Shown: piece by piece, positions 7,407-16,945 of the stretch | Layout of the letters: the number at the start of each line of letters is the position of its first letter | Numbering within the stretch: the stretch's first letter is position 1 | Assembly: GCF_005405905.1 (NCBI RefSeq) | Contig: NZ_BJHU01000030.1 | Coordinates: forward strand, 1 to 64,000 | From: Acidovorax sp. NB1 | GTDB lineage: Bacteria; Pseudomonadota; Gammaproteobacteria; Burkholderiales; Burkholderiaceae_C | Direction: 5' to 3' | Length of the DNA: 64,000 bases | The notes under the pieces: model-generated | What the model saw: only the letters and a program-made list of their open reading frames with translations | Database searches by the model: none | Told to the model about the DNA's origin: nothing | Position numbers and translations under genes: made by a program

Positions 7407-8294
7407 ATGAAAATCGCATTCATCGGCCTCGGCAACATGGGCGGCCCCATGGCACACAACCTGCACAAGGCAGGCCACGAAGTGCGCGCGTTCGACCTCT
7501 CCCAACCCGCCCGCGACAAGCTGGCGACTGACGGCGTGCCCATCGCCACCGACGCCAAGGTGGCAGCCGCAGACGCCGAAGTCGTCATCAGCATGCTGCC
7601 CGCCAGCCAGCATGTGGAAGGCCTGTTCCTCGGCGCGGGCGAGCTGCTGGCCCAGCTGCCTGCGGGCACGCTGATCATCGACTGTTCCACCATCGCAGCC
7701 GCCACTTCCCGCAAGGTGGCCGAGGCCGCCAAGGCCAAGGGCGTGGCCTTTATCGACGCCCCCGTGTCGGGCGGCACCGGCGGCGCCATTGCAGGCACCC
7801 TCACCTTCATGGTGGGCGGCGACGCAGCCGACCTGGAACGCGCCCGCCCCGTGCTCGAAAAAATGGGTGCCAACATCTTCCACGCAGGCAGCGTGGGCGC
7901 AGGCCAGACGGCCAAGATCTGCAACAACATGCTGCTGGGCATCCTGATGGCGGGCACCAGCGAAGCCATTGCCCTGGGCGTAGCCAACGGCCTGGACCCG
8001 AAGGTGCTGAGCGAAATCATGCGCCGCAGCTCGGGCGGCAACTGGGCGCTGGAGAAGTACAACCCCTTCCCCGGCGTGATGGAAACCGCGCCCGCCAGCA
8101 AGGGCTACGCGGGTGGTTTTGGCACGGACCTGATGCTCAAGGACTTGGGGCTGGCGCAGGAGAACGCGATGGCGGTGAAGGCTGCCACGCCGCTGGGAGG
8201 CATGGCGCGCAATTTGTACGCGGCGCACAGCTTGGCGGGGCATGGGGGGCTGGATTTTTCCAGCGTGATCAAGATGGTGCAGAAAAAGGCTTGA
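7407..8294 (+). CDS. mmsB: 3-hydroxyisobutyrate dehydrogenase
   Basis: A 295-residue beta-hydroxyacid dehydrogenase, the usual length for MmsB. It has the NAD-binding motif GLGNMG (residues 7-12), the substrate-binding signature DAPVSGGTGGA, and the catalytic Lys170 in GQTAKICNNM. It oxidises 3-hydroxyisobutyrate to methylmalonate semialdehyde, the substrate of mmsA upstream. A CCAGGAGCAAC ribosome binding site precedes the ATG. A strong terminator follows the stop, so this is the end of the transcription unit. Confidence 0.93.
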   Translation: MKIAFIGLGNMGGPMAHNLHKAGHEVRAFDLSQPARDKLATDGVPIATDAKVAAADAEVVISMLPASQHVEGLFLGAGELLAQLPAGTLIIDCSTIAAATSRKVAEAAKAKGVAFIDAPVSGGTGGAIAGTLTFMVGGDAADLERARPVLEKMGANIFHAGSVGAGQTAKICNNMLLGILMAGTSEAIALGVANGLDPKVLSEIMRRSSGGNWALEKYNPFPGVMETAPASKGYAGGFGTDLMLKDLGLAQENAMAVKAATPLGGMARNLYAAHSLAGHGGLDFSSVIKMVQKKA

Positions 8295-8330
8295 TGGAGC
8301 TTTGCGGGGCTGCGGCCCTTTGCGGATGAG

Positions 8331-8371
8331 AATGGGCGCTGTAGCATGTAGTTACAGCGCCCATTGTTTTT
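8331..8371 (+). terminator. Rho-independent terminator after mmsB
   Basis: A perfect 13-bp stem AATGGGCGCTGTA / TACAGCGCCCATT with a 9-base loop is followed by GTTTTTTC. It lies 37 bp after the mmsB stop and separates the catabolic genes from the AT-rich cassette block. Confidence 0.85.
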
Positions 8372-8449
8372 TCATCCGGAAGTTTTTAGGTTTGACTAAA
8401 CAGGGGGTTGGATGAGCTGCTCTGGAGAAAACAATGTAAGACTTTTTAT

Positions 8450-8494
8450 ATGACCCACTACCGCGTTTATGGCGTCATCCATTTCTAGTTAGGC
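8450..8494 (+). other. Possible cassette junction (attI-like or degenerate attC) at the start of the array
   Basis: A perfect integron core GTTAGGC (consensus GTTRRRY) lies at 8488-8494, 14 bp before the first cassette start codon. Just upstream, ATGACCC (8450-8456) pairs with GGCGTCAT (8471-8478) leaving one extrahelical base, which is the attC type of fold. A left RYYYAAC core is not evident, so this may be an attI remnant, a secondary insertion site or a decayed attC. Confidence 0.4.
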
Positions 8495-8507
8495 CTTGGA
8501 ACAACGT

Positions 8508-9071
8508 ATGGTTAGCTTCCCGTCAACTGAATCGCTTACCGCAAAAGATTTTGAGCTACTGGTTAAGAGCTGGCTCGAAGCGGAATCGGACGATTTGTGC
8601 GATTTCTCTGCGTCTCACCTTGAGTCGATGAAGGGGCAAGACGGTGAGTTCACCTTTGATGTGACTGCGAAATTCTGTATTTTTGGAGGGATGAAGGTGC
8701 AGGTCGTCGTTGAGTGCAAAAAGCACTCCAATCCTATTAAGCGTGAATTGGTTCAAGTGCTTAACGAGAAAAAGCGGTCTGTTGGAGCCCACAAAGCAAT
8801 ACTTGTTGCAACGGCCCCGTTCCAGTCTGGCGCAATCGAGTATGCTGAAAAAAACGGAATCGGCTTGGTGCAGATCGCCTCTAGCAACGTGCTATTTATT
8901 AAGGCAAGTAGAAACCGATCTGCACCGCTGCCTAGAGCCATCGAGAACGTGGCACTACAAGAACCATTCGTAGGCTTATTCTACGGAATGAATCCTAATG
9001 GAGATCTAGTGTTTCCGCAGGTGTTGCGGCGGGGAATGACTCATGAGCTTGGTATCTTCCTCCGTGGATAG
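8508..9071 (+). CDS. Mrr-like restriction endonuclease domain protein (cassette 1)
   Basis: A 187-residue protein with a PD-(D/E)XK nuclease core of the Mrr_cat type. The N-terminal helix LTAKDFELLVKSWLEAESDD is followed by the strand pair EFTFDVTAKF and VQVVVECKKHSNPIKRELV, which provide the Asp and the Glu-x-Lys of the catalytic site; a later ATAPFQSGAIEYAEKNGIGLV helix-strand is also typical. Mrr-like enzymes cleave DNA, often modified DNA. The ATG lies 14 bp after an integron GTTAGGC core, and the stop is 3 bp before an attC-like site, so the gene fills a cassette-sized unit. Codon use is less GC-rich than the flanking genes, a sign of transfer. Confidence 0.7.
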   Translation: MVSFPSTESLTAKDFELLVKSWLEAESDDLCDFSASHLESMKGQDGEFTFDVTAKFCIFGGMKVQVVVECKKHSNPIKRELVQVLNEKKRSVGAHKAILVATAPFQSGAIEYAEKNGIGLVQIASSNVLFIKASRNRSAPLPRAIENVALQEPFVGLFYGMNPNGDLVFPQVLRRGMTHELGIFLRG

Positions 9072-9073
9072 TT

Positions 9074-9140
9074 GTCTACCAAGCTTTGTGAGTGCCCTCC
9101 GTGCTTTGCACTCAGGCGCGGCCTACCTTGGGCGTTAGCC
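9074..9140 (+). other. attC-like recombination site 1
   Basis: A 67-bp site starts with GTCTACC (a 6/7 match to RYYYAAC) and ends with TTGGGCGTTAGCC, whose GTTAGCC is a 6/7 match to GTTRRRY. Inside, CCAAG pairs with CTTGG and TGAGTGC pairs with GCACTCA around a CCTCCGTGCTTT loop. Imperfect inverted arms with conserved outer cores immediately after a stop codon are the structure of integron attC sites. Confidence 0.6.
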
Positions 9141-9148
9141 GTACTTAT

Positions 9149-9622
9149 ATGAGCCAAAACATAGCAAATACTATTAAGATCGAGTTCAAACGACTAACAA
9201 ATATTGAAGTTTCTGCAGTATATATGCCAAAAGGAACCACGCACATTCCAACCACACTCCAAAATGGAATGTGCGGCGTATATATTTTCTTGTCTGGCAA
9301 ATACTGTTTCAAAGTCGGGAAAGCCGGTGCAAAGAGCAAAGCTCGCTGGAATTCTCATCACTACAATCTTGATGATACGACGCCTAGCACGATGCCCAAA
9401 TCGATAGTAAAAAACAAAGAAAAATTTAAAACGTATTTTTCTAGTGAAATGGGTGACGCAATAGACAAGTTAAACAAATCTAACATTCAAGCTTGGGTCA
9501 AAGAAAATTTATGCCGAATTGAGCTATTGATTCCGGAGCAAGAAGATTCTTTCGCACTTAATCTTCTTGAAGCACTGGCGCAGTTTCACCTGCGCCCAAT
9601 ATTCGAGGGAAAAAATGCTTAG
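9149..9622 (+). CDS. GIY-YIG-like protein (cassette 2)
   Basis: A 157-residue protein with a likely GIY-YIG nuclease-type fold. The motif CGVYIFLSGKYCFKVGKAG (about residues 43-61) matches the GVYxF...KVGxAG pattern, followed by KARWNSHHYN supplying Arg and His, and a C-terminal LLEALAQFHLRPIFEG in place of the usual Glu/Asn helix. Whether it cuts DNA cannot be told. The ATG at 9149 is 8 bp after the attC1 core; the same frame is open upstream through the attC, but starting there would translate the recombination site. The TAG stop overlaps the next attC-like site. The gene is AT-rich compared with the chromosome. Confidence 0.55.
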   Translation: MSQNIANTIKIEFKRLTNIEVSAVYMPKGTTHIPTTLQNGMCGVYIFLSGKYCFKVGKAGAKSKARWNSHHYNLDDTTPSTMPKSIVKNKEKFKTYFSSEMGDAIDKLNKSNIQAWVKENLCRIELLIPEQEDSFALNLLEALAQFHLRPIFEGKNA

Positions 9623-9686
9623 CCCGGCATTCGAGCGGACTGGCCAACGGCCAGCCGCTTACCTTGAACATCATGACTTGTTAAAT
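9617..9686 (+). other. attC-like recombination site 2
   Basis: A 70-bp site runs from GCTTAGC (6/7 match to RYYYAAC) to GTTAAAT (7/7 match to GTTRRRY). The central hairpin AGCGGACTGGCC-AAC-GGCCAGCCGCT has one unpaired A, the extrahelical base expected for integrase recognition of the folded strand, and TTCGAG can pair with CTTGAA further out. The stop codon of cassette 2 lies within the left core and the next ATG is 8 bp after the right core. This is the best of the three sites. Confidence 0.75.
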
Positions 9687-9693
9687 AAATAAT

Positions 9694-10479
9694 ATGTCGC
9701 AAAAGAAATTTTTACTTGGTCTAGGAGCATTTTCTTCATTAGCAATAACTTTGTTCGCACTGCAAAAACTTATTCTCAATGATTTTCCAAGCAAATCCAA
9801 TATTGCAATGATTTACTTTTTGTATGCAAGTGCTTTACTAGCAACACTGCATACAGCTATTTTTTGGTTGCGCCTAGAATTGCTGGAAACAAGAGGTTGC
9901 GGCCTACCAAAAAATACACCTCGCTATATTGACTACTGCATAACAATAATTATTGCGGTTGGACTTTTCCAAATAAATTTTTCGGAAGACTCCATGGCGA
10001 AGTACATCACAACAATATCAGGCACAAAGCAAGATATATTGACTAATATTCAAAACGCTGCACAGAAGCATTTGGACACGGACTGCAAGCCCGATTCTGG
10101 ACTCCTAGTGGAGGTTTGCGAATCCATGGGCCGGGAGAATTGCAAACAAAAGAAAAGATTCACGACTGAGTTCTGTATGAAAACAGCAGAAATACTCAAT
10201 CAGAAAAATATGGAAAATTACATACTAGAGGTCACAAGCAAAGATACAGAGTATCTAAACCATCCAATTGAATTCATTGCAACAAATGGGGGCCCGCAAG
10301 CAGTATACTCACCGCTTAAGAGATTTGTAAACCAACTTTCGTCAAGTGTCGAATATTCAAAAACCTCAATTAATTCCGAATCAAAGCTTGCGCTAAATTG
10401 GATTATAATAATACTATTACCATTGATTATAGCACTGCGAGCACTCAAAACATCCGTTGAAATATTTGGGAAACTGTAA
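9694..10479 (+). CDS. Predicted membrane protein of unknown function (cassette 3)
   Basis: A 261-residue protein not recognised. It has hydrophobic segments at about residues 5-25, 36-58, 82-97 and 233-252, so it is an integral membrane protein with a large soluble region (about 98-232) containing five Cys residues (DCKPDSGLLVEVCESMGREN, then NCKQKK and FCMKTA). It is very AT-rich and Lys/Ile/Asn-rich compared with neighbouring genes, indicating a foreign origin. It occupies the whole unit between attC-like sites 2 and 3. Confidence 0.65.
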   Translation: MSQKKFLLGLGAFSSLAITLFALQKLILNDFPSKSNIAMIYFLYASALLATLHTAIFWLRLELLETRGCGLPKNTPRYIDYCITIIIAVGLFQINFSEDSMAKYITTISGTKQDILTNIQNAAQKHLDTDCKPDSGLLVEVCESMGRENCKQKKRFTTEFCMKTAEILNQKNMENYILEVTSKDTEYLNHPIEFIATNGGPQAVYSPLKRFVNQLSSSVEYSKTSINSESKLALNWIIIILLPLIIALRALKTSVEIFGKL

Positions 10480-10573
10480 AAACCGCTTATACGAGCGCGC
10501 ACAGTTGTCCGACTATTGAAATCGCTGACACCATTTCGATTGAAGAAAGGGTGACAGCCGTATTTCAAGAAGT

Positions 10574-10640
10574 ATCTAATCCGGCAGTCAAGTGGACTGG
10601 CCTACGGCCATCCGCTTACTTTGATCTACAAGGGCTTCCC
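10574..10640 (+). other. attC-like recombination site 3, right end lost
   Basis: The left core ATCTAAT (6/7 to RYYYAAC) at 10574-10580 is followed by the hairpin AGTGGACTGGCC-TAC-GGCCATCCGCTTAC, nearly the same as that of site 2 and again with an extrahelical base. After TTTGA the sequence changes into coding-like DNA (TCTACAAGGGCTTCCC) and no GTTRRRY core is found. The site looks truncated by a deletion or rearrangement that fused the array to other sequence. Confidence 0.6.
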
Positions 10641-11273
10641 CACCCATGCAAGCGCAACCCATCCCAAGCTGATTGCAGCGCGATCGACTCAAGCAAACGG
10701 TTTGCGGTTTTCAACCCAGATCGACTCCCAAACCAGTGTTGGCGGCCATGCCCCCTTCACCGCCTCAACGCTCTGGATCATCAAAACCGGCGATGCACTG
10801 CCGTCGCTACGTGCGGTGCATGGTGACTTTGAAGACTGGATTGCCCGTGGGCTGGTTCAGGACAACAACAACCTCTCGGCGCTGCCCGTGCAAACCCTGA
10901 ATGCGCACACAACCACGGCATGGCCCGCGATGGAGTCCGTGGCGGGGGTCGTAGTCACGGCGATCTGCCCATCGAATTTGCGACCCACGTGGTGCACGAA
11001 CAGTCGGTACGCCGCTTACCGCCTCGGGCGGTAGCACTGGCGGCCAATGCCCACGAAGCCCACCAAGCGTTTCGTGTGGGGCCCAGCGCCTGGGGCATGC
11101 AGTTCCACCCCTATTTCAGCGATGCCGTCATACGCGACTACGTGCAATGTTTTGCGCCGTCGCTGCAGCGCACGGGGATGGATACCGACGCTTTGCAGCA
11201 GCGGGTGCAGGCCACGCCGCGCGCTGCCAGCCTGCTCACGCGCTCTGCGCAGTTGGCGGAAGTCAAGCCTTAA
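10621..11273 (+). pseudogene. Remnants: possible hydrolase tail fused to a broken class I glutamine amidotransferase
   Basis: One reading frame gives IYKGFPTHASATHPKLIA, which resembles the C-terminal YxGFPHG...TH segment of alpha/beta hydrolases (weak). After about 45 codons it continues as LWIIKTGDALPSLRAVHGDF and EDWIARGL, the N-terminus of GMP-synthase-like glutamine amidotransferases. The C-terminal half appears in another frame: PIEFATHVVHEQSVRRLPP and then FRVGPSAWGMQFHPYFSDAV, with the catalytic His of the triad. The central segment with the catalytic Cys (GxCxGHQ) is missing, so the gene is frameshifted and internally deleted. It directly follows the truncated attC-like site. Confidence 0.6.
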
Positions 11274-11282
11274 AATATTGAT

Positions 11283-11340
11283 GAAAATTGGCTCTAGCGC
11301 TTATCTATAAAGCGCTAGTAGCTATCAAATATATAGTCCA
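11283..11340. repeat. Short dispersed palindromic repeat, copy 3
   Basis: The segment reads CTAGCGCTTATCTATAAAGC followed by GCTAGTAGCTATCAAATATA. CTAGCGCTT and AAGCGCTAG form a perfect 9-bp inverted repeat, followed by the family core GCTATCAAAT. It lies between the amidotransferase remnant and the DUF2946 gene. Confidence 0.7.
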
Positions 11341-11448
11341 ATCAGTCATCCGCGCCGGTGCCAGCGCCTCGGTCGCGCCCACCAGACTGGCGCCGATGTC
11401 CAACAGGGACATGACTGGCACGCCGTGGACTCACTTCAAACCCCGCAG

Positions 11449-11468
11449 TTGAGTATGATTCGCATCCC
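11449..11468 (+). promoter_or_regulatory. Possible Fur box upstream of the iron/metallophore locus
   Basis: TTGAGTATGATTCGCATCC lies 3 bp before the ATG of the DUF2946 gene. It resembles the core of the Fur consensus (GATAATGATAATCATTATC), with TATGATT followed by a CAT half. Its position before a TonB receptor locus fits iron regulation, but the match is partial. Confidence 0.4.
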
Positions 11469-11471
11469 CTC

Positions 11472-11861
11472 ATGCTGCACCGCACCATCCCCGCCCTGCC
11501 TTTCCACATCGTGCTTCTGCTGGTGGCGTTGTTCAACGCGCTGGCGGGTGCACCCTTGCATGAGGCACGGCACATTCAGGAGCTGGTGCGCAGCGCCACG
11601 GCCTCGGTAGCCGCAGGCGATGTGGAGGGCTTCGCGGCAAACACCGCAGCCAGCGACGATCACAGCGAAGAGACACACACCACCTGCGCTTGGTGCCTGA
11701 CCCACGCGCTGGAGGCGGGGCTGGCGCATGCACCGGCGCGCCAACCGCAACCGCCCGCTGAACCCGGCGCCATTGCGCCGCAAGGCGCAAACCCCTTCAC
11801 GGCCCAGCAGGTGCGCTGGCCGTTTGCTGCACGCGATCCTCCACCCGCCAGCCAGGCCTGA
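11472..11861 (+). CDS. DUF2946-like small secreted protein
   Basis: A 129-residue protein with an N-terminal signal/anchor (residues about 8-26, PFHIVLLLVALFNALAGA) and a short CAWC motif at about residues 75-78 preceded by acidic and His residues (ASDDHSEETHTT). These are features of the DUF2946 group, small proteins often found beside TonB-dependent receptors and copper or iron genes; metal binding through the CxxC and His residues is plausible but unproven. The TonB receptor starts about 165 bp downstream. Confidence 0.55.
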   Translation: MLHRTIPALPFHIVLLLVALFNALAGAPLHEARHIQELVRSATASVAAGDVEGFAANTAASDDHSEETHTTCAWCLTHALEAGLAHAPARQPQPPAEPGAIAPQGANPFTAQQVRWPFAARDPPPASQA

Positions 11862-12026
11862 CACGCGTCAAGCCCCAGCCAGCCTGCGCTCTCCAGCGCA
11901 TCCCCTTTTCGTTTTCGCCCTTGCCCGCGCCCCGTGGTCGTGTGCGGGCTGCAACCTCGTGCGCCTCATCTCCAGGCGCGCCGGGCCCCGTTTTTGCGTT
12001 CATCTGTTTTTTTGGACTGGTTAGCC

Positions 12027-14207
12027 ATGCGCACCTCCCCTTCTTCTGTTTCTTCTTCACGCCCTGCGCCCCTGCCGCGCCCCACTTTGACGGCCCTGGC
12101 GGCGGCGGCCCTGCTGGCTTCCCTGCACCCCGCCCAGGCCGCAGACGGCGATGTGGTCACGCCGCCCACCCTGTCGGCCGTAGACGTGGTGGGCCGCAGT
12201 GCCTCGGGCACCTACTACGCCGACGAGGCCGAGGGCGCCAAGACTAGCCTGCCGCTGCGCGAGCTGCCGCAATCCGTGCGCGTGATGTCGCGCCAGACGC
12301 TGGACGACCTGGGCGCCACGCGGCTGGATGATGTGCTGGACTATGTGGGCGGTGTCTCGCGCCAGAACAACTTTGGCGGGCTGTGGGACAACATCGCCAT
12401 CCGGGGCCTGCCGGGCAATGAGAACACGGGCATGGCGACGCTGCTCAACGGCTTTTCGTCCAACCGGGGGTTTAACGCGCCGCGCGACTTGGCGGGGGTG
12501 GAGCGGGTGGAGTTTTTGAAAGGCCCCGCCGCCGCGCTGTATGGCAGCAGCGAGCCCGGCGGCACGCTCAACATCGTGAGCAAGAAGCCGCTGTGGAAGG
12601 CCGCGCATTCGGTGGAGGCCTACGCGGGCAGCTACGGCCTGGGCCGGGCGGCGCTGGACACCACCGGCCCCATCAACGACCGGCTGGCCTACCGCCTGAA
12701 TGTGGCGGTGGAAGACAAGGGCAGCTTTCGCGACCATGTGCGCGCGCAGCGGCAGGTGGTGGCTCCGGCCTTTACCTGGAAGCTCTCGCCCGACACGGTG
12801 CTGGAGTACACGGCCGAATTTCTGCGCCACGCCACGCCGCTGGACCGGGGCGTGGTGGCGGTCAACAACCGCCTGGGCGCGGTGCCTGCCAGCCGCTTTT
12901 TGGGCGAGCCTGCCGATGGCGATGTGACGGTGACCAACCAGACGCACCAGCTGGTGCTGTCGCACGAGTGGAACCCCGACTGGCGCAGCCGCGTGGGGCT
13001 GTCATACCGCGAGACGGGGCTGGAGGGCTTCTCGACCGAGGCCACGGCGCTGCAGGCCAATGGCCGCACGCTGACGCGCCAGCGGCGCTTTCGCGACTAC
13101 CAGTCAGACGACGTGGCGGTGCAGGCCGAGCTGCAGGGCAACCTGCGCACGGGCGGGCTGGAGCATGAGCTGCTTATGGGGGTGGAGAGCTTCCGGTTCA
13201 GCATGGATTCGGTGATGCTGCGGGTGAACCCCAGCGCTGCCGCGCCCTATGCCATCGACATCTTCAACCCCGTGTACGGCCAGGCGCAGCCCACGCCGGG
13301 GCGCAACACCGACACGCTGGAAAAGCAGCGCAACACGGCGCTGTATGTGCAAGACACCCTGAAGCTGGGCGAGCAATGGCGCGTGATGGCCGGGCTGCGG
13401 GCCGACAACTATGACCAGAGCCTGCAAAACCGCATCACCAACCGCACCACGGCGCAAAGCCCCTCGGCCGTGTCGCCGCGCCTGGGCGTGAGCTGGCTGC
13501 CGCTGCAAGGCGTAACGGTGTATGCCAATGCGGGCACGTCGTTCCGCCCCAACGCAGGCAGCGATGCTGCAGGCAATGCCTTCGACCCCGAAAAGGCCCG
13601 CGCGCTGGAGCTGGGCGCCAAGTGGGAGAGCGCCGACCAGCGCCTGGGCGCCACCGCCGCGCTGTTTGACATCAAAAAGCGCAACGCCCTGACCAGCGAC
13701 CCGCTGAACGCAGGCTTTTCGGCCGCCGCTGGCGAGGTGCGCAGCCGGGGGCTGGAGCTGGACTTGTCGGGCCGCGTGAGCGCGCATTGGCGGGTGAACG
13801 CCAGCCTGGTGTTCAACGACGTGGAAGTGACCCGCGACAACACGCTGGAAGTGGGCGGCCGCCTGCTGAACGTGCCCAAGGTCAACGGCAGTGTGCTGGC
13901 GGTGTACGAAAACGCACTGGCCAACGGCCAGCGCTACGGCGTGGGCGGCGGCGTAACCCACATGGGCAAGCGCCTGGGCCAGGCCCGCACGCAGGCCGAG
14001 GCCAATGCGGGCACCGCCGCGTTTGAGCTGCCCAGCTACACGACAGCCAAACTGATGGCGTACTGGCGCCTGAGCCCTACGCTGAACCTGTCGCTGGATG
14101 TGGACAACGTTTTTGACAAGGTGCACTACACCAGCTCGTACAGCCGCGTGTGGGTGACGCCGGGAGCGGCGCGGACCGTCACGGTGGGTTTGCAAGCGAA
14201 GTTTTGA
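12027..14207 (+). CDS. TonB-dependent siderophore receptor
   Basis: A 726-residue outer-membrane receptor. A signal peptide (LTALAAAALLASLHPAQAAD) is followed by the plug domain, which begins ELPQSVRVMSRQTLDDLG and contains the siderophore-receptor signature IRGLPGNENTGMATLLNGF and VERVEFLKGPAAALYGSSEPGG-type block (split here). The beta-barrel ends in a C-terminal Phe (VTVGLQAKF), as required for outer-membrane assembly. It imports a ferric or other metal chelate using TonB energy. The ATG at 12027 was chosen as it puts the signal peptide at the N-terminus; the frame is open upstream. An ABC transporter follows, so the two probably handle the same ligand. Confidence 0.9.
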   Translation: MRTSPSSVSSSRPAPLPRPTLTALAAAALLASLHPAQAADGDVVTPPTLSAVDVVGRSASGTYYADEAEGAKTSLPLRELPQSVRVMSRQTLDDLGATRLDDVLDYVGGVSRQNNFGGLWDNIAIRGLPGNENTGMATLLNGFSSNRGFNAPRDLAGVERVEFLKGPAAALYGSSEPGGTLNIVSKKPLWKAAHSVEAYAGSYGLGRAALDTTGPINDRLAYRLNVAVEDKGSFRDHVRAQRQVVAPAFTWKLSPDTVLEYTAEFLRHATPLDRGVVAVNNRLGAVPASRFLGEPADGDVTVTNQTHQLVLSHEWNPDWRSRVGLSYRETGLEGFSTEATALQANGRTLTRQRRFRDYQSDDVAVQAELQGNLRTGGLEHELLMGVESFRFSMDSVMLRVNPSAAAPYAIDIFNPVYGQAQPTPGRNTDTLEKQRNTALYVQDTLKLGEQWRVMAGLRADNYDQSLQNRITNRTTAQSPSAVSPRLGVSWLPLQGVTVYANAGTSFRPNAGSDAAGNAFDPEKARALELGAKWESADQRLGATAALFDIKKRNALTSDPLNAGFSAAAGEVRSRGLELDLSGRVSAHWRVNASLVFNDVEVTRDNTLEVGGRLLNVPKVNGSVLAVYENALANGQRYGVGGGVTHMGKRLGQARTQAEANAGTAAFELPSYTTAKLMAYWRLSPTLNLSLDVDNVFDKVHYTSSYSRVWVTPGAARTVTVGLQAKF

Positions 14208-14214
14208 TGAAGCA

Positions 14215-14345
14215 CCCCCTGAGTCGCTTCGCGCCTTCCCCCTCTCTCGCTACGCGGGAGGGGGACGCCCCCAGCGCGGCGGGGCGGCCCTTGCGCGGGG
14301 GCACTGGTCTTTGGCAGCGCCAGTTTCGTCGGTTGCGGCGAACGC
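14215..14345. repeat. Dispersed ~130-150 bp GC-rich repeat, copy 2
   Basis: This block begins CCCCCTGAGTCGCTTCGCGC, continues with CTTCCCCCTCTC, GGGAGGGGGACGCC, CGGCCCTTGCGCGGGGGCA and ends near GCGCCAGTTTCGTCGG. The order of blocks is the same as in copy 1 at 4535-4686. It lies between the TonB receptor and the ABC transporter operon. CCCCCTCTC can pair with GGGAGGGGG to form a hairpin without a T tract. Confidence 0.7.
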
Positions 14346-14366
14346 GCAGGGCTATGGAAAACTGAA

Positions 14367-15980
14367 ATGAACACCTTCTCGACTTTTCTTCGGCCACTGA
14401 GACGGCGCCATGCCCTGCAGGGCTCAGTGGCCGCGCTGGCGGCGGGCGCCCTGCCCGCTGCCTGGGCACAGGGCACACCACCCGCCTCCACCCCCGCACC
14501 GCTGCAAATCGTCGGCCCGTGGGAGATCAGCGGCCTGGCGCCCGCCAGCAGCGGTTATGTGTTCACACGCATGCAGGTCACAGAAACCCTGCTGGACGCT
14601 GCAGACGACGGCCAGCCACGGCCCGCGCTGGCACGGCTCTGGCGCCGGTCGGCGGATGGGCTGGTGTGGCAGTTTGAGCTGCGGCCCGGGGCGCGTTTTC
14701 ATGACGGCACGCGGGTGACCGCCGCCGCCGTGGTGCGCAGCCTGCAGGCCGCGCAGGTGGCGCCTGCGCTGCTGAGCCAGGCGCCCATCGAATCCATCAC
14801 CGCGCCCGACGAGGGCACGGTGATCATCCGCCTGCAGCGCCCCTACACCGCCCTGCCCGCGCTTTTGGCGCACTCCAGCACCATGGTGCTGGCCCCGGCC
14901 AGCTATGGGGCCGACGGCAAGGTGCGCAGCATCATTGGCAGCGGCCCCTACCGCATTGCGGTGCTGGTGCCGCCGCAGCAGGTGGAGACCATGGTGTTTG
15001 ACGCCTACGACGGCCCGCGCCCTGCCATTGCCGCCGTGAGCTACCTGGCCGCCAGCCGTGCCGAAACCCGCGCGCTGATGGCCGAGAGCGGCCAGGCCGA
15101 CCTGGCCTATGGCCTGGACCCGGCCAGCCTGCGGCGGTTGCAGCGCCATGCGCAAAACCCGGCGCTGGCGCGCCGCACGCCGGTGCGCATTGCCTCGGTC
15201 ACGCTGCCGCGCACCGTCATCGTCAAGCTCAACGCGGGCTTGCCCGCGTTGCGCGATGTGCGCGTGCGCCAGGCGCTGAGCCTGGCCATCGACCGCGCAG
15301 GCATTGCGCTGGCGCTGATGGGCGACGAGGCGCTGGCCGCCACGCAGCTGCTGCCGCCCACGCTGGGCGCGTGGCACAACCCCGACCTGCCCCCGCTGCA
15401 GCACGACCCCGAAGCCGCCGCGCGCCTGCTGCGGGCCGCTGGCTGGCAGCGCCACAGCGGCGGCCTGCGCGATGCCGAGGGCCTGCCGCTGCACCTGGTG
15501 ATCCGCACCTTTGTGGACCGGCCCGAGCTGCCGCTGATTGCTACCGCCTTGCAGGAGCAATGGAGGCTGGCGGGCATTGCGGTGAAGGTGAGCATCGGCA
15601 ACTCGGGCGACGTGCCCCGGGGCCACCGCGACGGCAGCCTGCAACTGGCGCTGGCGGCACGCAACTACGCCAACGTGCCCGACCCCACAGGCACGCTGGC
15701 GGGCGACTTTGCCGCCCAGGGCGGCGACTGGGGCGCCATGGGCTGGCACAGCGACGCCGTGGTGCAGGCCCTGCAGGAGCTGACGCGCACCCAGACCACG
15801 CCCGAGCGCACGCGCGCGCTGCGGCAAACCATCACGCACACCCTGCAAACCGAGCTGCCCGTGATCCCCTTGGCGTGGTACCGCCAGCATGTGGCCGTGG
15901 CGCCCCGGCTGGCGGGCGTCACGCTGGACCCGCTGGAGCGTTCTTACCGCCTGACCGGCATGGAGTGGAACAACCCATGA
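14367..15980 (+). CDS. ABC transporter substrate-binding protein, family 5 (peptide/metal-chelate type)
   Basis: A 537-residue extracytoplasmic binding protein of the DppA/NikA family. The N-terminus has a double-Arg containing signal peptide (RRRHALQGSVAALAAGALPA, cleavage near AWA-QG). The SBP_bac_5 features GRFHDG-like block (GARFHDGTRVTAAAVVRSLQ) and the conserved VRQALSLAIDRAGI segment are visible. Such proteins bind di/oligopeptides, nickel chelates or opine-type metallophores. The stop codon overlaps the next start (ATGA), so it is translationally coupled to the permease. Its place behind a siderophore receptor suggests a metallophore or small peptide ligand. Confidence 0.85.
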   Translation: MNTFSTFLRPLRRRHALQGSVAALAAGALPAAWAQGTPPASTPAPLQIVGPWEISGLAPASSGYVFTRMQVTETLLDAADDGQPRPALARLWRRSADGLVWQFELRPGARFHDGTRVTAAAVVRSLQAAQVAPALLSQAPIESITAPDEGTVIIRLQRPYTALPALLAHSSTMVLAPASYGADGKVRSIIGSGPYRIAVLVPPQQVETMVFDAYDGPRPAIAAVSYLAASRAETRALMAESGQADLAYGLDPASLRRLQRHAQNPALARRTPVRIASVTLPRTVIVKLNAGLPALRDVRVRQALSLAIDRAGIALALMGDEALAATQLLPPTLGAWHNPDLPPLQHDPEAAARLLRAAGWQRHSGGLRDAEGLPLHLVIRTFVDRPELPLIATALQEQWRLAGIAVKVSIGNSGDVPRGHRDGSLQLALAARNYANVPDPTGTLAGDFAAQGGDWGAMGWHSDAVVQALQELTRTQTTPERTRALRQTITHTLQTELPVIPLAWYRQHVAVAPRLAGVTLDPLERSYRLTGMEWNNP

Positions 15981-16945
15981 ACCCTTTGACTTCAAAACCC
16001 TGGGCCGCCGTGGTCGGCCGCAGGCTGGTGCAGGTGCTGGCCGTGTCCCTGCTGATCGGCACGCTGTGTTTTTTGATGGTGCGCGCCCTGCCGGGCGACC
16101 TGGCCATGCGCGTGGCGGCGGGCCGCTATGGCTACGACCTGGTGAGCAACGCCGCTGCCGACGCCGTGCGCGCAGAGCTGGGGCTGGACCGACCCGGCTG
16201 GCTGGCGCTGCTGCACTGGTGGCGCGACATGGCCACGTTCAACCTGGGCCAGTCGCTGGTGTCACAGCGATCGGTGTGGCATGAGGTGGCGCACCACCTG
16301 GGCGCCACGCTGCGCCTGTCTGCCGCCGCGCTGGCAATTGCCTTTGCCGTGGGTGTGCCGCTGGGCGTGTGGGCCGGGCTGCGCCCCCAGGGCTGGGTGG
16401 ACAAGGCCAGCTGGCTGATGGCCGTGGTGCTGCGCGCGCTGCCGCCGTTTTTGCTGTCGGTGCTGCTCATCCTGCTGGTGGCTGTGCAGTGGGGCTTTTT
16501 GCCTGCGGGCGGTGACGAGAGCCAGGCCAGCCTGGTGCTGCCTGCGCTCACGCTGGGGCTGGGCCTGGCCGCCGGGCTGGCGCGCGTGACCCGCGCTGCG
16601 ATGCTGGAGGTGGTGGTGTCGCCCTTTTTTGAATTTGCGCGCACCAAGGGCCTGAGCGACTGGCAGGCGCTGGTGCACCACGGCCTGCGCAATGCCGCCG
16701 TACCGGTGACGGCCTACCTGGGCGTGCAGGCGCTGTTTCTGGTGGAGGGTGCGCTGGTGGTCGAGACGCTGTTTGCCTGGCCCGGCATCGGCCATGCGCT
16801 GGTGCACGCCGTGTTTGGGCGCGACATTCCGGTGGTGCAGGGCACGGCCCTGTGCATGGGACTCCTGTTCGTCGTTTTCAACCTGCTGGTGGATGCGGCC
16901 TGTTTGGCGCTGGACCCCCGGCATGCGCAAAAGGTAGCCGCATGA
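15977..16945 (+). CDS. ABC transporter permease, DppB/OppB type
   Basis: A 322-residue inner-membrane permease. It has an N-terminal transmembrane helix (VLAVSLLIGTLCFLMVRALP) with the LPGD motif typical of DppB-type permeases, five further hydrophobic segments, and the ATPase-contact EAA loop (EFARTKGLSDWQALVHHGLR). It overlaps the substrate-binding gene by ATGA and the second permease by ATGA. It forms the membrane channel with the next gene. Confidence 0.9.
   Translation: MNPLTSKPWAAVVGRRLVQVLAVSLLIGTLCFLMVRALPGDLAMRVAAGRYGYDLVSNAAADAVRAELGLDRPGWLALLHWWRDMATFNLGQSLVSQRSVWHEVAHHLGATLRLSAAALAIAFAVGVPLGVWAGLRPQGWVDKASWLMAVVLRALPPFLLSVLLILLVAVQWGFLPAGGDESQASLVLPALTLGLGLAAGLARVTRAAMLEVVVSPFFEFARTKGLSDWQALVHHGLRNAAVPVTAYLGVQALFLVEGALVVETLFAWPGIGHALVHAVFGRDIPVVQGTALCMGLLFVVFNLLVDAACLALDPRHAQKVAA

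Follow-up and report, generated by a model that had tools for sequence, protein, structure and literature searches.

Background

The attachment site attI is usually regarded as the fixed partner of the integron integrase gene intI, and a study of Treponema integrons assumes one attI per integron (PMC3607928; this and the other papers cited here are represented by excerpts of their text). Cassette arrays away from an integrase gene have been described as clusters of attC sites lacking an integrase (CALIN), which hold several attC sites with no neighbouring intI (PMC9024848, PMC12444791), the threshold being two attC sites (PMC9024848). Those of Xanthomonas occupy conserved places away from intI and are described as mobilisable in trans (PMC12444791). 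Furthermore, the delta-attI cassettes of clinical integrons indicate that pieces of attI can travel, and they and the attG sites are examples of IntI acting away from the usual attI position, on sites that derive from attI or are genomic (PMC12901181). In the case of IntegronFinder 2.0, attI sites other than those of class 1 are stated to be poorly described and are not detected (PMC9024848). Here we describe a cassette array that is headed by an attI and has no adjoining integrase gene, from Acidovorax sp. NB1 (contig NZ_BJHU01000030.1, here C30, of a 5.49 Mb genome assembly in 60 contigs). The window that we analysed is the whole stretch C30:1-64000, which is 64,000 nucleotides long. The array comprises the attI and, behind it, three open reading frames (ORFs) on the same (+) strand with attC sites between them, and we consider it likely that it is a small integron minus its integrase, that is, an old orphan attI with three cassettes that were loaded in trans by a resident integrase.

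The array shares its attI family, attC family, cassette layout and orientation with the sedentary chromosomal integrons of Acidovorax (for example those of genomes G025, G046 and G004), but differs from them in having no integrase gene and in its position, which is behind an mmsB gene. Like a CALIN it shows several attC sites without a neighbouring intI, whereas a CALIN, as we read the term, is a cluster of attC sites only, and here an attI stands at the head of the array, with a lone attI at the same place in at least three genera. Unlike the delta-attI and attG sites, this attI is about 123 bases long, has fixed chromosomal places in relatives and heads an array. In the open-access literature that was searched (subscription papers and preprints lay outside this scope) we recognised no lone attI platforms.

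An attI site without an adjoining integrase gene

The orphan attI occupies about 123 bp of the + strand (8372-8494) and ends in the core GTTAGGC (8488-8494). It was delimited by alignment to attI sites next to intI and by a profile of eight such sites: positions 8372-8492/8495 align end to end with the region from the intI start to the core at the intI loci of eight Acidovorax genomes (G025, G046, G004, G039, G031, G027, G013 and G043). Local alignment scores against these eight sites ranged from 47 to 75, the top of 212 shuffles being 40, and a profile made from only the eight sites recovered the window site with an E-value of 8.7e-7 in 1.48 Mb of fetched loci, which are mainly mmsB and intI loci. 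The other matches of this profile (E up to 10) were confined to the intI loci themselves and to positions immediately after mmsB. A search with TIGR02249 (E up to 0.001) found no intI beside the window attI, the sole match on C30 lying at 201 kb. Among the components of a complete integron, the locus thus has the attI and the cassettes with attC sites and lacks the adjoining intI, and its end-to-end homology to intI-adjacent attI sites sets it apart from an attG, a genomic target other than attI.

A preliminary description of this DNA had classed the block as a CALIN that opens with a GTTAGGC core before the first ORF. The core is present, but it is the end of the attI, and the feature starts about 80 bases further left; likewise, the at least two attC sites and the lack of a nearby intI agree with a CALIN, but the array is led by an attI of the genus's own integron family, common to at least three genera behind mmsB. 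The AT-rich character of the block in a GC-rich chromosome was correctly described, with a GC content of 0.39-0.48 in 500-base windows from 8250 to 10749 and of 0.61-0.76 in the flanking ones (those entirely to the left of 8250 or within 10750-15999).

The attC sites

No Rfam family reached its gathering score, and the attC sites were therefore tested with models built in this analysis. For the covariance model R1 we used 18 attC sites taken from nine Acidovorax genomes other than NB1, with the window excluded, and the window was scanned with filters off; model R3 was derived from the best 150 of 200 attC matches in relatives, likewise with window sequences excluded. Site 3 (10574-10629, +), the right end of the array, and site 2 (9617-9686, +; model match 9617-9672) were the first and second R1 matches in the window (40.1 bits, E 4.5e-9, and 35.4 bits, E 9.9e-8), and R3 placed them in the same order (E 6.8e-8 and 8.5e-7). 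On sequence grounds both are clearly assignable to the resident Acidovorax attC type, as had been proposed for a resident chromosomal integron. Site 1 (9074-9140, +) came fifth with R1 (9.7 bits, E 2.8) and third with R3 (10.2 bits, E 2.7), its left half having diverged while its right half is of the family type. In its right 23 nt this site is identical to the attC of a relative at 20 positions, a level that none of 2000 shuffles matched, and these 23 nt score 17 against 9 for the runner-up among the 1240 GTT-anchored 23-mers of the window, whereas the left half is at chance level (403/2000 shuffles). On folding of the + strand, 13, 4 and 0 of 200 shuffles were as good as sites 1, 2 and 3 respectively, and on the - strand 70, 4 and 12, which supports sites 2 and 3, and not clearly site 1. 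Across the attC family 96.7% of the cells in paired columns were paired, against 81.9% in shuffles, the alignment being one fitted to the model.

Two of the sites have no right core where the usual spacing of the family would put it: in that position site 2 reads ATCATGA, with a GTTAAAT ten bases on (9680-9686) as a degenerate right core, and site 3, where the right core is lost, reads TACAAGG. The array accordingly looks partly decayed. The right core of site 1, GTTAGCC, departs from the strict GTTRRRY, and many sites of the family end likewise. The three ORFs on one strand and the attC-like sites of the preliminary description were recovered where it had put them, firmly for sites 2 and 3 and by its right half for site 1; the attC architecture that it took as given held in the covariance search it had suggested as a check for sites 2 and 3, but without the normal right core, and did not extend to a strict GTTRRRY or a significant match at site 1.

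A search for hairpins like that of site 2 found none in the NB1 genome beyond sites 2 and 3, and a separate search gave only short weak matches besides the query. A rule-based attC scan missed sites 1 and 3, shifted the left end of site 2 and reported several other places in the window that were judged to be chance; it was set aside.

A conserved platform behind mmsB

The left neighbour of the attI is an mmsB-type gene of the 3-hydroxyisobutyrate dehydrogenase family (7407-8294, +; Pfam NAD_binding_2, 2.8e-53), which is conserved upstream of a lone attI in 11 loci. A terminator-like hairpin with a T run and a 15-pair stem (8331-8365, +) stands between the two, the terminator scan overall having returned 2 terminators against 2.5 expected from shuffles. 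In genomes G039 and G026 the homology with the window extends beyond mmsB and stops at 8492, within the core, and is followed by a different cassette in each. A lone attI is found behind mmsB in 6 of the 35 Acidovorax genomes with a fetched mmsB flank (NB1 included). Among 80 named mmsB loci, strong attI matches were seen in L112, L116 and a Giesbergeria metagenome-assembled genome (L162). In Simplicispira hankyongi (L183) the match is partial (E 6.3e-5) and preceded by a transposase-like ORF, and in Oryzisolibacter (L171) it reaches only E 2.8. Further cases come from the genera g73 (G118, G421) and g5 (G397, G270). This amounts to 11 loci from at least three genera, a count in which L112 and L116 are not taken apart from G039 and G029 and from which L183 and L171 are left out.

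Over the 11 loci the mean pairwise identity is highest in block 1 (0.80), followed by the hairpin (0.76 over 8333-8363), block 3 (0.72) and box 2 (0.64), and drops to 0.37 in the middle part and to 0.31 past the core. The same junction between hairpin and attI is readable in 10 of the 11, the hairpin of G270 having diverged, and all 11 were negative for intI pieces. The first cassettes mostly differ between loci, with the comparison for the Giesbergeria locus covering only 122 bases. Those of G025 and G421 are related (68% over 243 bases), that of G025 resembles the second cassette of G026, and in G270 the core is followed by an insert that is also present in L223 and L225.

In four loci of Acidovorax type that yielded no lone attI (L115, L117, L118 and L123) we also observed opposite-strand attC matches downstream of mmsB, so that the region may accept cassettes in both orientations or by other routes. 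Separately, two other records, L150 (Comamonas granuli; 2-512) and L152 (3-350), have pieces of integron integrase about 4.5-5 kb before the mmsB gene.

Orphan attI sites across the family

A sequence model of 15 attI sites, that of the window included (R2), matched 42 of 399 genomes of the family at 84 places, with one to six per genome. We read 60 stretches around these matches (from 2 kb upstream to as much as 6 kb past the site), which cover the 84 places in part and contain 58 attI matches. In 34 of them the 1.4 kb upstream are free of intI pieces (three of these orphans, L256, L258 and L272, being partial matches), 11 stand beside a nearly full intI, and 13 have a remnant or a more distant intI piece, this last group including a site whose long intI match lies some 1.1 kb off. 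Downstream attC sites on the same strand (R1, E up to 0.1) accompany 28 of the 34 orphans and 9 of the 11 intI-adjacent sites. Counted per attI match, 175 attC sites lie downstream on the same strand against 4 elsewhere, where the stretch lengths favour the downstream side and chance would place about 3 in 8 there; the 4 others belong to a second attI of the same stretch, three being counted twice in L258.

A strict set, limited to matches that have an nhmmer E-value no higher than 1e-7 and span 101 or more model positions, retains 21 orphan attI sites in 15 genomes, 20 of them with attC sites on the expected strand; with the E limit removed there are 31 orphans, 25 with attC sites. An uninterrupted full-length IntI is encoded in seven of the 15 genomes (G050, G152, G187, G270, G274, G300 and G421), and in all but G152 it adjoins an attI of the window's family. 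These observations suggest that one integrase can serve several docking places across a genome. In a control at the level of the order, R2 (E up to 0.01) matched 14 of 260 genomes. Four belong to one family (G000 and three others) and ten lie outside it; among the ten, G691 gave an E-value of 1.3e-15 and the others 9.9e-5 to 0.0065. On account of this control weak R2 matches were not classed as strong.

A near-identical insert starting TTCTTCGACATTAGAGC was noted directly after the attI core in L223, L225 and L255, a pattern that would fit an insertion element with the core as its target; L231 and L248, with a similar-looking start, CCGCCG, may be further cases.

Two platforms were taken to share cassettes if they had at least 150 bases in common at an identity of at least 85% on the same strand, leaving out pairs within L223, L225 and L255, which have the common insert at the core, and the same-genome pair L225-L242, which shares an element whose ORF is IS110-like by eye. 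Such sharing was found in 5 of 51 same-genome pairs and in 61 of 2225 between-genome pairs (Fisher p 0.015); with the IS110-like pair included, the same-genome figure becomes 6 of 51 (p 0.003). An intI array and an orphan platform share cassettes in G187, G274, G270 and G025, the platform in the last of these being the one behind mmsB.

Integrase search in the NB1 genome

The preliminary description had suggested looking for an intI elsewhere in the genome. A broken one does exist, on contig C23, as two pieces with internal stops (TIGR02249, E up to 0.001), besides distant recombinases, but it is of another type and has another attI region. It belongs to a second integron (locus L009, on the 11568 bases of C23; 5486-6429), whose adjoining ORFs lie on the opposite strand and carry two attC matches. 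The better of its pieces shares 66.8% identity with the G026 integrase and 42.1% with the type beside the attI family of the window, and its attI region reads differently from the window attI. The C23 integron was thus ruled out as the simple builder of the array. A search with R2 found no second attI in the NB1 genome.

Origin of the array

Our best inference, which agrees with the preliminary description, is that the array was built by an integron integrase encoded elsewhere. The lone attI, which follows closely on the mmsB terminator, would be a long-inherited docking site and was probably recognised in trans by the integrase of a resident integron encoded elsewhere on the chromosome. Cassettes would have been inserted at the core of the orphan attI much as the integrase does at its own attI, and the orphan site itself may have been maintained by selection, with relatives still keeping a full-length integrase and one or more orphan platforms. 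As for the origin of the orphan sites, the intI remnants beside some attI sites suggest the loss of intI, and travelling attI pieces such as the delta-attI cassettes may be another source. In NB1, where no matching integrase was found and two of the three attC sites are without a right core, the platform has probably ceased to be active; although the draft assembly may be incomplete, in its present state a platform without its matching integrase is probably a fossil.

Several points weigh against loading in trans. The case for it is built from sequence comparison and not from observed recombination. Two loci outside the attI sets (L022 and L097) scored 45 and 42 in the local alignment, above the shuffle maximum of 40, and the lowest attI scores hence rest on the profile and not on the local-alignment test. 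Four of the mmsB loci (G118, G421, G397 and G270) were found through R2, which makes the conservation of the blocks partly a selection effect, the other seven having been found by synteny, local alignment or the intI-only profile. A simple scan found no sigma-70-like promoter in the attI from which the cassettes would be expressed. Of the 15 genomes with strong orphans, eight show no uninterrupted full-length IntI (some are drafts), and the failure to find a matching integrase in the NB1 draft would, taken alone, fit plain decay. Finally, the enrichment of sharing within genomes is mild, its pairs are not independent, and cassettes also move between genomes, which makes same-genome sharing suggestive only.

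An alternative without any loading in trans is that a complete integron once stood here, was filled in cis in each lineage and then lost its intI. The remnant class of 13 among the 58 attI sites, with its intI fragments and the one long match about 1.1 kb away, offers the stages expected of such a loss, and the NB1 genome itself has a broken intI, though of another type. Against this, none of the 11 mmsB loci retains an intI piece and the junction is alike in 10 of them, which implies that any loss of intI predates the split of the genera, whereas the cassettes mostly differ; moreover, loaded orphans also occur in genomes with an uninterrupted IntI. We therefore regard assembly in cis followed by loss as rather unlikely.

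That the block is an ordinary CALIN, arisen at a chance attG-like target or as a fragment left behind by an array, without any attI, appears far less probable still: CALINs in conserved places are known from the cited excerpts on Xanthomonas (PMC12444791), and the opposite-strand attC sites behind mmsB in L115, L117, L118 and L123 would suit it, but a site of about 123 bases that is homologous to intI-adjacent attI sites and has conserved blocks stands at the head of the array. The notion that the block is no integron product at all, but a variable spot with unrelated small genes and chance hairpins, can draw on the missing Rfam family and on the weakness of site 1 in models and folding, and is scarcely credible in view of the E-values below 1e-6 that sites 2 and 3 reach with models free of window sequences, the match of the right half of site 1 to a relative's attC, the end of homology in relatives at the core and the excess of paired cells in the attC family over its shuffles.

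Cassette ORFs and flanking genes

The ORF of cassette 1 (8511-9071 from its ATG, +; a TTG at 8496 is a possible start) has an Mrr-type endonuclease domain (Pfam Mrr_cat, 6e-11), and those of cassettes 2 (9149-9622, +) and 3 (9694-10479, +) matched no family over the cut-off. The gaps between core and ATG are 16, 8 and 7 bases for cassettes 1 to 3, in place of the 8-14 bp given in the preliminary description. Relatives among the 399 family genomes (NB1 counted) number 2, 1 and 1 for the three cassettes, and those in plasmid records 3, 1 and 0; the single relative of cassette 1 (L282) has no R1 attC match at E up to 0.1. PADLOC gave weak matches and no confident name for the cassettes, and NCBIfam none over the cut-off. 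Among solved structures cassette 1 had no relative at E up to 0.1 and cassette 2 one row at chance level (E 0.53), while the structure predicted for cassette 2 was unusable (mean pLDDT 44.2). In a DNA search of plasmids, the 20 records listed out of 349 matched mmsB only.

On the right flank lies a broken glutamine-amidotransferase-like gene (10774 to about 11273-11337, +), recognised by blastn against locus L091, the GATase match in Pfam being at 0.037 only. It is without about 220 bases that genome G035 (L091) has, and in G029 (L096) the array adjoins only the 3' part of an amidotransferase-like gene. A short inverted-repeat element (GCGCTTATCTATAAAGCGC) at about 11285-11337 is seen again in many of the fetched Acidovorax loci.

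Implications

Beyond this one locus, we lean towards the view, by a slight balance of the evidence, that many Comamonadaceae may possess a distributed integron, in which one IntI would serve several attI platforms at separate loci that are kept by selection over genus-level time, the array of the window being a decaying mmsB platform of this kind. If the lone attI sites are indeed working platforms, then part of what is catalogued as CALIN may consist of capture sites operated in trans, and both the size of integrons and the traffic of their cassettes would have been undercounted. The question of how clusters of cassettes end up far from an integrase would then become directly testable. Finally, if the integron of these bacteria is distributed in this manner, its cassettes could be held and expressed in several genomic contexts simultaneously.

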